Shown here in pieces: positions 18,780 to 23,036 of a stretch of DNA of 64,000 nucleotides. Both the position numbers and the translations under genes were made by a program. A model generated the notes under the pieces. That model did no database searches. It saw nothing but the letters and a program-made list of their open reading frames with translations, and was not told the DNA's origin. Within the stretch, counting starts at the first letter, position 1, and the number at the start of each line of letters is the position of its first letter. Source of the stretch: Penicillium oxalicum (Eukaryota > Ascomycota > Eurotiomycetes > Eurotiales > Aspergillaceae); assembly GCF_001723175.1 (NCBI RefSeq), contig NC_064655.1, positions 744,001-808,000 on the forward strand, written 5' to 3'.

Positions 18780-19625
18780 AAGGATTCACGTGGTACATGT
18801 CTCCAGTCGGAGTCGACACGATGTGGACAGATTTGGTTGAAAGATGGGGTCTATCCAGCTTGAAAGCACTCCCATTCCAACGCTCGATCCAAATGACCGA
18901 GACACCACTAGCGGGAGCCAAGGATCGAAAGCAGATGTCAAGAAAAGAAGCATTTACGAGGCGTCATGATTCAGGTTGGGGTTCGATTTGTCTTTGTCTT
19001 TGGCTATGGTGTATGATAGGAATCGTGAATATTGCAATATCACCTCATGATCAGACAGCTCTGGTTTCTGGGAGGGGTTTCTTACGCTCATTCCGTCTCT
19101 CGGGGCCCTTCTCATGTACTATAAGAGGAAAGGCTCGCTTTTTCTATGTCAGATTCAAGGTAAGTCCGGCCGTTGATCTGGCTTAGGTACCAGGCATATC
19201 AGATGGGAATGGACCATCACGGTGTCGTGTTTAAGCTCCCTGCCTCAGACGTAGATTGACGATTGAACAAGGAATCAATCCTGCTCTGGATCCTTCCTCC
19301 ATGAGTTCTCTGACTGTGTCATGGGCCGGGCACTTGTCTACATAGATGTACTCGCTGTCTCTGCCTACTCTGTGGGTCATGACCCACCATTTTACCATTT
19401 TCATTCATGACCGGTGGAAACAACGGCTAAATTTGAGTCTCTCTCATTCCGATTCAAGACAAGAGAGCATGGATGCAAATCAGGGTTTCAAGTTTCTTAT
19501 AGAGAAAAAAAGAATCTTCAAGGTACAGAGAACATATTTTCTTCTAGCAAGACACCGGAAGGTGGTTGGATGAGGGAGGTGTCATGTGGTTACTTTGTTT
19601 GTTGCGAGACATCATGGCCATCGCT
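18780..19625. other. convergent 3' region
   Basis: About 850 bp between the stop of the RRM-like gene and the stop of the NAC beta gene on the opposite strand. Only short, domain-free frames are present; expected to hold both 3' UTRs. Confidence 0.5.
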
Positions 19626-20867
19626 TTACTCGACCTTGCTCTCGAAGTTCTCACCCTCGACCAAATCGGGGATGTCATCCTCCTCGTCGTCCTTCTGGCC
19701 CTGGGCCTTCTGCATGTTCTGGTAAGACTCGGCGAGCTTGCGGAGGGAGGCAAGGCTGTCGGGGCCGAGCTGGTTCAGGATACCGGGGACGAGCTCGGTG
19801 AGCTCCTTCTCCTCACCGTGGCCGTAGAGAGCGAAGGTGTTGGAGGGGACGGAACCGTGGACTGGTGTGAGGCAAATGAGCTTGTTAGTGGGTCATAATC
19901 TTCTTGGGTGTCGAGTCTCATTCGTAGTGATTTGGCAAGACCAGTGAACGGAGAACCCGCCAATTGGACGAGTCGCCCATATCAGGTCACCGAGGTAACC
20001 GACGAGGGGAGGGAAAGGTACTCACCGCGGGGAGCACCGAAGTGGATGACGTTGCCGTCCTCCTTGAACATGTTGACCTCCTCAATACCCTGGACGGGCT
20101 GGACGTTCAGCTTCTTGAGGGTGGCCTGGAGCTTCTTGTCATCGGCATCGGCGGTGCGGTGCACCTTCTTGACCTTGCGGCGGGGAGTACCCTTGCCTCT
20201 GGTGTGTGGAGAAAACAGCAAGTTAGTGAGGAATTCTTTTGCTCCTGGGTGGATGCGCCTGATAGAGGTGTGTCGGAGGGAGAGATAGTGAGAGTCCGGG
20301 GAGATGCAAGGGCTCGGCGAGGTCAGTAATCGCTGCGTGTGTCGAAGATGCACTGAACTGTTCTCCGATTTCTTCAGTGTGCGGCGTCGGGCTAGCCTCT
20401 GATATTGCAGATAGGTTCCAGTCTAGGATCGATCTTTTGTGACGCCGTCGCACGAGTTCCTCCTCCCTCACTGCACTCCAGTTGATCGAATTGGGAAGGG
20501 AAAGTGTTGGTATGGCAAAAAAGCGAGGTGTTTCCACCCAGTGTGGAAGATGATACGTACCCTATCCGAGAAAATCAAGACATTAGTTTAGTGATCAGGA
20601 GATGACGGGCGATCGAAAAGCAAGAAGCTTCTTTTCACACACGGCAAGCTAGCTCCAAGGTGCTGGGAGAGGATCAAAGTCCGGCGATGCAATGGGGATC
20701 CTCTGCGATTCCACCCGCTAAGCTCGACCCATTGAAATCTCCCAACACGTCCCCAACTCCAGCTTCCGCGGTCCAGATGCAACTTTCCATCCTGCCTCCC
20801 CCTTTCGAAGATATCACGTACCAATGCGCACGCTCTGCTGCATCTTAGCCAACTTGGCGTGATCCAT
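19626..20867 (-). CDS. egd1: nascent polypeptide-associated complex subunit beta (NAC-beta, BTF3/Egd1)
   Basis: Model: exon 1 20867-20822, a one-nucleotide exon at 20561, exon 3 20198-20026, exon 4 19861-19626; 151 aa. The protein starts [17 protein letters not shown] and [12 protein letters not shown] follows. It then has the NAC domain ([46 protein letters not shown]) and an acidic tail ([16 protein letters not shown]). NAC-beta binds ribosomes through its basic RRKVKK motif and, with the alpha subunit, contacts nascent chains. All introns have good signals: GTACGT/ACTAAT/GATAG (20821-20562), GTACGT/ACTAAC/CACCAG (20560-20199) and GTGAGT/ACTAAC/CACCAG (20025-19862). Without the extra G the frame after exon 1 fails or a conserved Gly is lost; see the separate entry. 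Divergent from the FSH1-type gene. Confidence 0.9.
20561..20561 (-). other. egd1: candidate one-nucleotide exon of the NAC beta gene
   Basis: On the minus strand the context is TCTCGGATAG|G|GTACGTATC. An acceptor with branch site ACTAATG about 20 nt upstream is followed by a single G and then by a consensus donor. Exon 1 ends one base into a Gly codon and the main exon starts two bases before a GGC codon, so exactly one base (modulo 3) must come from between. The single G gives GGA-GGC-AAG, i.e. the IGGKG motif conserved from fungi to human BTF3. The alternative is one long intron using a tandem acceptor (CAGAG|GC), which keeps frame but encodes IGKG. Confidence 0.7.
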
Positions 20868-23036
20868 TTTGACGGGTATGAGGGTGTTGAAAGAGGGGAT
20901 CTAGAGGTGCGACCCGTTAGCCGACTGGTGTGGAGAGCCAAGAGGCCAAAAGCGTCAATCCGAGCGATCGAGGAAGAGCTGAATCAATCGTGGCAGACGA
21001 AAGCCGACGACGAGGAAGATCAAGCGTACCGGGTTGATTTGAAGGTGGTGGTGGGAGTGGTGGTTGAGGAGGGGTGGATGGAACCGGAGAGGATTCGCAG
21101 GTGTTGGTTTGTCAGAGGCGGTTGATGATGCGCATCTCTCGAGTTTTGTGTGGGGGGGGGACAGCACCCGCCCAGTTGGTGTGTTCGCTAATACGCGGCC
21201 AAACGACGAGACCACCGCTCTAATAGAACTTCTACGCGGTAAAACATCTTTTACAGGATCATCTTTTTCATTCTGTATGAAGCTGGGGGGAGTGGGCAGA
21301 TATTTCGCAAAGTATACGTTGATCATGAAGGGCGCCTCCGTGGCAGTGGCCCATTTGATTGTGGGAGTCCTTCGTCCTCGACGGGAGAGTTGTTGCTCGG
21401 CTAAACCCTAACGGACGATTTCGAGATGGATCAGACTGTCACCAAAACCCGTCCGGTCTGCACGACGGAGTATGATAGCACATCCCCGTACACTTCTTCT
21501 GGAAAACTAAATGAAGGGCATGTTTCAAGGAGTGTGGTTCTCTTAAGTTGACGCGTAGGGTTGTCCGTCCACACTGGTTGATCTTGAGTCCTTCAACATC
21601 TTGGTTCACGTCTGGCGGAGGCCCGATTTTCAGCCTCGTGGTCAGCTGACTCTTGCTGACCGCTCTGGCAGAATCGACGGGAGTACTGGTTGCGTCGACT
21701 CACTTCCCTTGTGTCAACTGATTGGGTGATTGAGCGATGGTACAAGCGGACGCATTTGAGATCTGACTTGCGAGGACGATTGTGTGTGTGCCATTGGTGA
21801 TCTGGAAAGAGTCCAATTGAAGCTGGATATCATTCAAGTTGCGTATGATTTCATGTCAAGTCCAAGGTCCACCCAAGTTGTTGACGATGGGACCCATCCG
21901 TAATTGCAGCAACCGGCAACATAGAGGTCCAGCAACTCCCATGTGTGCTCGAAACAAGAGGTCTTTTCTTTTTTTTTCTCTCTCTTTGCCCCTCTCTATC
22001 CATTCATTTGTGCAAATGATGGGTGGAAGTGGTCAAGTGTGAAACTGAGTGTGTTGCAGACGTGGTCCCCCAGATAGTGAAGAAGGCAGAGTCGGTTCCG
22101 GTGGACAATACTGTCTTTCAGGATTGTCTTCTGAGACTGAGATATCCACCAAATAGGTTGGACCTTTCATTTGGTATAGGATATAGGTATAGTCGTCTGA
22201 CCGATGCTATTCTTTGGCGGGCTCTATAAGGCCGTGGAGTTGGGATGAGATGTCATTCTCTTCTGACCATTGCGTGTCATTAGTTAAAGGGATGGCACCC
22301 CCGGGGGTGTCGTGATGTATATCGTGTCTCTGGTCCCCGAATGCTCCAGGCCGGCACTCAGCCGCATCAGACCATTCCAGCCGCCCACACTCACATCGTT
22401 GCATCGCTTCGCTGCGAGTGTGTCATCCCCGGCAGATGGACAGGAAGACTCCACTCCACGTTTGCGAGGACCTCCATGTGGATAGATGGCCTCCAAACCA
22501 AATCTGTCTTCGAATCAACCCGGGATCCCTTGTCCACTTGAAGGCTCATCACTTGGAGTCAACGATATGCTCACCCCCTACCCAGGCCTTTAAGCTTCAA
22601 TTGCTCGCTTCCTGGTGCATAATCTGCCAAGGACAGGACCACCACTTCCCTCCATTGTTGGTCGCTCAGATCTCCTGTGGGGGAGGGTGGATGATTCATG
22701 CATCAGCAGTGCTGACAGCCTCACACAAACGCCCACACACACACACACACACACATACTTTCTCCCTCTCTTCTCTCTCTCTCTCACCATGCATGTGAAC
22801 TAGTAACAATAGAGTGTTATCCAAACCCTATCCACCAATAACTCAATACCATCGACTACTAGACTCATCGCTCGAGCCCAAGTTCTGTTTATCTACCTGA
22901 CTCTGACTCTGACCCTGGCCCTGACCCCCGATCCAAGATTTAAATCTCATCTCTGCGGGAGAAATCTACACAGCTCTTTGCTCAATCATTCTTCCAACTT
23001 TTTCCCTCCACTTCTCCGACAACATTCCTCTCCGTC
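20868..23036. other. long bidirectional intergenic region
   Basis: 2.2 kb between the divergent NAC beta and FSH1-type genes. No gene was recognised. It contains a CA microsatellite at 22734-22755, a 10-G run near 21151-21160 and CT-rich tracts (21965-21990, 22760-22790, 22975-23030), the last being typical of fungal core promoters just upstream of a start codon. Confidence 0.55.
22734..22755 (+). repeat. CA microsatellite
   Basis: Eleven CA units in non-coding DNA, about 280 bp upstream of the FSH1-type start codon. Confidence 0.9.

Follow-up and report, generated by a model that had tools for sequence, protein, structure and literature searches.

A probable single-nucleotide exon in egd1

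The minus-strand gene at 20867-19626 of the window (the 64,000-nt stretch of DNA analysed here, on contig C6 of the 30.77-Mb genome) is the Penicillium oxalicum gene egd1/BTF3 (NAC beta), and analysis of its sequence points with high confidence to G20561 as a constitutive exon of one nucleotide, whose flanking GT-AG introns would be removed sequentially. Joining 20867-20822, 20561, 20198-20026 and 19861-19626 gives a 151-aa product that aligns with human BTF3 over residues 1-147 (E 6.5e-49), VRIGGKGT being identical. This product possesses both features that mark NAC beta/BTF3/Egd1 proteins: the NAC domain (PF01849, E 7.3e-14, within exon 3) and the N-terminal IGGKGTxRRK segment; the ribosome-binding RRKxxKK segment lies just after IGGKGT. 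The second NAC-domain match of the genome (G000:C6:1003024-1003110, E 6.1e-6) is presumably NAC alpha (egd2).

In the order of transcription, the gene consists of exon 1 (coding sequence 20822..20867, 46 nt), of which 15 residues match the N-termini of BTF3 and fungal NAC-beta proteins and which ends with ATT G, one base into a glycine codon; intron 1 (20562..20821, 260 nt), from GTACGT through a CTAAT branch motif (20586-20582) to GATAG; the predicted exon 2, the single G at 20561, second base of the glycine codon GGA; intron 2 (20199..20560, 362 nt), from GTACGT through CTAAC (20226-20222) to CACCAG, its minus-strand sequence running on from G20561 as GTACGTATC; exon 3 (20026..20198), starting with A-GGC, where A is the third base of the glycine codon; an ordinary intron 3 (19862..20025, GTGAGT...CACCAG); and exon 4 (19626..19861), ending with a TAA stop. 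The presumed branch adenines at 20583 and 20223 lie 21 and 24 bases before the last base of introns 1 and 2, respectively (22 and 25 by a second count). An Rfam search over 19400-21400 (E up to 5) gave no match to a snoRNA, or to any other RNA family, within the long introns.

The initial annotation had proposed this lone G with its own acceptor and donor, and reading of the minus strand together with a scripted re-derivation matched it letter for letter. Including G20561 gives IGGKGT; joining exon 1 directly to A-GGC leaves the message one base short, and omitting G in favour of the tandem acceptor AG (CAG-AG, 20197..20198) gives IGKGT, with loss of a glycine kept in human BTF3, as was also claimed. 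In the 623-nt interval 20821-20199 there is exactly one AG-N-GT of any N, namely GATAG-G-GTACGT, in which N is the required G. As expected of a single-nucleotide spliceosomal exon, one base stands between AG and GT, each of the two canonical introns has a branch-site motif, and the base is needed for both the reading frame and the conserved protein sequence.

Splicing models were enumerated by pairing GTs in about 20835-20791 with AGs ending in about 20230-20176, either directly or through one middle exon of up to 150 nt. The direct in-frame introns in these ranges are three, and none produces IGGKGT: the first removes VRIGGK, the second encodes IGKGT (150 aa), and the third yields IGTGKGT by way of the weak donor GTGATA. 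Among the 221 in-frame models that contain a single middle exon, only the single-nucleotide exon yields VRIGGK/IGGKGT, and the same model alone has consensus sites throughout (GTANGT donors, YAG acceptors and an upstream YTRAY).

Splicing in fungi is commonly attributed to intron definition. Each flanking intron of G20561 would likewise be recognized in this way, in line with the argument of Guo and Liu for APC11. The acceptor GATAG of intron 1 and the donor GTACGT of intron 2 are one base apart and could not both be occupied at once, from which we infer sequential removal. If intron 1 were removed first, ATTGG/GTACGT would result, and if intron 2 were removed first, GATAG/GAGGC; either order would be workable, and G20561 would complete the glycine codon G-G-A, restoring the frame and the conserved IGGKGT.

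Frequency of the motif in the interval and the genome

The motif YAGGGTANGT occurs at 280 places on both strands of the 30.77-Mb genome, or about 0.003 per 623 nt, and CTAAY-N4-30-AGGGTANGT occurs at 11, or about 1e-4 expected per 623 nt, both counts being possibly lower bounds. Dinucleotide shuffles of the interval (n=20,000) contain YAGGGTANGT in 20 cases and the motif with CTAAY in none; a relaxed form (YTRAY, GTRNGT) appears in 7 of 20,000. Reversed-pattern controls exceed the real counts (660 versus 280 and 38 versus 11), which speaks against genome-wide enrichment of the motif; its weight lies in its presence inside this egd1 intron. No general class of such exons in the P. oxalicum genome is indicated by the motif. 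The version with A, C or T in place of G has 17 matches (two overlapping), compared with 81 in its reversed control.

Besides egd1, two of the 11 places, both with AGGGTAYGT and a branch motif, were inspected. One (L023, G000:C1:3875221-3875251) looks non-coding, and the other (L024, G000:C6:392922-392953) seems to lie in the coding sequence of a sugar-transporter-like gene, judging the translation by eye; neither resembles a single-nucleotide exon. A splice-site profile derived from 269 kb with regular expressions was dropped; its scrambled-donor control gave 95 versus 88 for the real pattern.

Probable traces of the exon in protein records of relatives

Three protein searches, of which the best 120 of 4,025, 4,509 and 4,809 matches were taken, supplied 276 distinct NAC-beta records. 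Judged by the source column, 188 of these count as named and 88 as unnamed; the unnamed ones come solely from jgi, lgn, ena or merc, with P0144 added, and five records named by jgi only (P0079, P0129, P0136, P0156 and P0269) were placed among the unnamed. We take the tags lgn and merc to denote assembled read collections. Junction classes were assigned by regular expression, and the splice junctions of relatives were decoded from the protein records; one scan (of eight) of viral_contigs found none of the relatives' DNA. P0144, a uniref-only entry that bears the name 'Transcription factor BTF3' and is assigned to the firefly Photinus pyralis, shares 127 of 132 core residues with Purpureocillium NAC beta and probably reflects fungal contamination of insect data.

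The 188 named records listed comprise 32 with a clean GG, 49 with one residue between the glycines (G-x-G), 8 deletions (six lacking one glycine; P0113 and P0155 lacking GGK), 80 with other inserts, 17 in which exon 1 was not recognized and 2 unmatched; 84 of them (assorted inserts, missing exon 1 and other) fall outside the record-by-record readings below. By a looser test, GG directly precedes K/R-GT in 48 of the 188, of which 16 are not of the clean form. Some named records that read GG may reflect ordinary introns, in which case the single-nucleotide exon would possibly not be universal.

The inserted residue of the 49 G-x-G records listed is T in 19, I in 16, D in 7, E in 2, H in 2, and K, S and N in one each. 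These are the residues that would be encoded by donor bases +3 and +4 together with the base that opens the following exon, such that T would correspond to GTACGT, I to GTATGT, D or E to GTGAGT, K or N to GTAAGT, S to GTAGGT and H to GTCAGT. The simplest reading of this pattern is that gene finders preserved the frame by splicing at the donor's second GT. The form is found also in Sclerotinia (Leotiomycetes) and Alectoria (Lecanoromycetes). In P0105 (Bachmanniomyces) and P0234 (Stictis) it is G-H-G, which would imply the unusual donor GTCAGT.

A second trace begins 17 of the 80 other-insert records listed, from 11 genera, with G-Y-V; the next commonest triplet begins three. A lone G followed by a GTAYGT donor and read through would be translated GGG-TAY-GTN, or G-Y-V, and read-through from exon 1 into GTAYGT would give G-T or G-M, which suggests that these models read the lone G on into its donor. 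The records belong to Penicillium (P0003, P0044, P0063, P0076), Aspergillus (P0054), Emmonsiellopsis (P0263; Eurotiomycetes), Colletotrichum (P0124), Pyricularia (P0125, P0135, P0137), Drechmeria (P0146) and Lasiosphaeria (P0195), the last three genera being Sordariomycetes, Fusarium (P0152), Stachybotrys (P0175), Trichoderma (P0209, P0216) and Tothia (P0266; Dothideomycetes). P0098 (GCV) and P0118 (GYI) are similar and were left out of the 17. Of the P. oxalicum records, P0001 (PDE_03431) is 150 aa long with one glycine missing, and P0002 is 215 aa long and includes translated intron-2 sequence as far as exon 3; under the single-nucleotide exon reading, both are wrong.

GGK or GGR is present in 87 of the 88 unnamed records listed, the exception being P0240. 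Their reading frames span the protein without a break, and the contigs are mostly short (long ones include P0009, 3,389; P0170, 5,203; and P0206, 15,518), which suggests that most are probably cDNA. As a view of the mature message, these 87 relatives have GG, although no record among them is a known P. oxalicum cDNA and position 20821 might supply the base instead. The query of one search held only one glycine, so the GG of its matches is not due to query bias. P0170, which reads TGGKGT, is identical over a core of 132/132 residues to P0209 of Trichoderma asperellum, whose model reads GYVAKSQQ..., and to P0181 of T. atroviride, whose model carries another insert; P0021 is identical to P0027 of Rasamsonia at 134 of 140 residues, with IGG in P0021 and IGIG in P0027. 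Named partners at least 95.5% identical exist for 18 unnamed records listed; given up to five partners for each, in 14 none of the partners is clean GG, and four (P0071, P0079, P0104 and P0246) have a GG partner. Because contiguous reading frames with GG occur in such close relatives, ribosomal frameshifting was set aside. The comparison with related species suggested by the initial annotation, carried out through protein records, reveals the fingerprints that a single-nucleotide exon would be predicted to leave.

Alternative readings of the junction

The best surviving alternative, though improbable, is one long non-canonical TA-AG intron (20820-20199), in which U1 would pair with GTACGT and cleavage would occur one base downstream, keeping G20821. 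Because positions 20821 and 20561 carry the same base, a GGA GGC cDNA fits this intron and the single-nucleotide exon alike, and the unnamed records that read GG are compatible with it. However, the TA-AG intron would make a coincidence (about 1e-4) of the interval's only AG-N-GT, complete with branch motif and full donor, and it leaves unexplained the G-Y-V of the named records listed, which implies AG/G/GTAYGT inside the introns of 11 genera. Sequence signals and G-Y-V records together strongly favour the single-nucleotide exon.

Direct splicing of 20821-20197 through the tandem acceptor GAG, which is in frame, uses a strong donor and is the annotation of the public model P0001, is still less probable: it passes over the first CAG for GAG two bases on, and its IGKGT protein is short of the glycine found in human BTF3, whereas 87 of 88 unnamed records listed keep both glycines and just one glycine is missing from only 6 of the 188 named records listed. 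Use of a donor four bases downstream (20817, GTGATA) with the CAG at 20199 would also stay in frame, giving a 152-aa protein with IGTGKGT, and has its counterpart in the G-x-G form annotated in 49 of the 188; but GTGATA is weak by consensus count, the inserted residue is not conserved among relatives but changes in the manner expected of donor letters, and GG in all but one of the unnamed records listed speaks against it, which makes this reading highly implausible. Equally implausible are a longer cassette exon, named by the initial annotation as one of the findings that would overturn the lone G and represented by 220 other in-frame models (single middle exon) and the inserted sequence of P0002, since none of the 220 has IGGKGT or full signals; and a sequencing or assembly error near the junction, which is very unlikely in this single assembly given that the records of many genera show similar trouble.

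Relation to known single-nucleotide exons

Exons of one nucleotide are already known, and egd1 is, with high probability, a new, central and apparently old place for them. As the only enumerated model that keeps both the frame and Gly-Gly, the one-base reading is supported, but its uniqueness is not, given the precedents in APC11, VPS55 and CYP621A. The CYP621A exon of Fusarium (Nelson and Syed 2026, PMC12940212), by its own account the first for a fungal gene, resembles that of egd1 in that it is a single G in AGGGT, the middle base of a glycine codon within a conserved motif in a filamentous fungus, at a phase-1 boundary unable to join a phase-2 exon, with public models that are wrong. It differs in belonging to a P450 said to be rarely expressed, in being reported from Fusarium and in having SRA reads as proof, whereas egd1 is a housekeeping gene in which the exon, predicted here from sequence, apparently spans several classes.

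In Arabidopsis APC11 (Guo and Liu 2015, PMC4674806), a constitutive exon of one nucleotide likewise lies between AG and GT and is required for the frame; there the organism is a plant, the base is A, and cDNA and protoplast substitutions are the proof. Intron definition with sequential removal was argued for it in that paper, so the statement that the egd1 exon challenges exon-definition models was too strong. The one-nucleotide microexons of plant VPS55 and APC11 (Yu and Li 2022, PMC8831610) are deeply conserved and absent from reference annotations, as that of egd1 would be, and differ in being from plants and in their RNA-seq and RT-PCR support.

Two related systems are more distant. A mitochondrial rnl gene in an Ophiostoma study (PMC12308204) has a one-nucleotide exon between two adjacent introns in a fungus, but these are group II introns with an unrelated mechanism. 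At a ratchet point of recursive splicing, AG is followed at once by GT and no base is retained. The egd1 site, with one base between AG and GT, is not of this kind: one coding base is kept, although recursive splicing with zero-length exons (PMC5126111) resembles it in that the acceptor abuts the donor and removal is necessarily sequential. In a literature search that covered few subscription papers, the pairing of nascent polypeptide-associated complex with microexon or micro-exon was not found, nor was egd1 together with intron, exon and Aspergillus.

With egd1, an exon of the minimum possible size would be found in a core gene of housekeeping function, and not only in a rarely expressed P450. 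Many public fungal NAC-beta models would then have a wrong N-terminal junction, with effects on structure and phylogeny, and egd1 could serve as a benchmark for gene finders.

Possible age and origin of the exon

The traces in protein records suggest that the single-nucleotide exon is old: its range most likely takes in Eurotiomycetes, Sordariomycetes and Dothideomycetes as a minimum and probably extends over much of Pezizomycotina. We lean towards its presence in the common ancestor of leotiomyceta (meaning here Eurotiomycetes, Sordariomycetes, Dothideomycetes, Leotiomycetes and Lecanoromycetes) or of all Pezizomycotina, with retention by selection since. An ancestral exon of this kind would be the most widespread single-nucleotide exon reported in fungi, and broken in most of the named models listed; should its distribution be as broad as these records imply, the genomes that carry it would form a natural series for following retention of a one-nucleotide exon, order of intron removal and rate of loss.

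A past duplication of the donor is a possible source of the lone G, unproven and not claimed here. The donor contexts 20840-20780 and 20580-20520 share GGTACGT, because both sites are donors, and then ATCTTC in both; the two contexts align better than shuffles (P 0.0015, n=2,000), and for the whole introns P is 0.053 (n=300).
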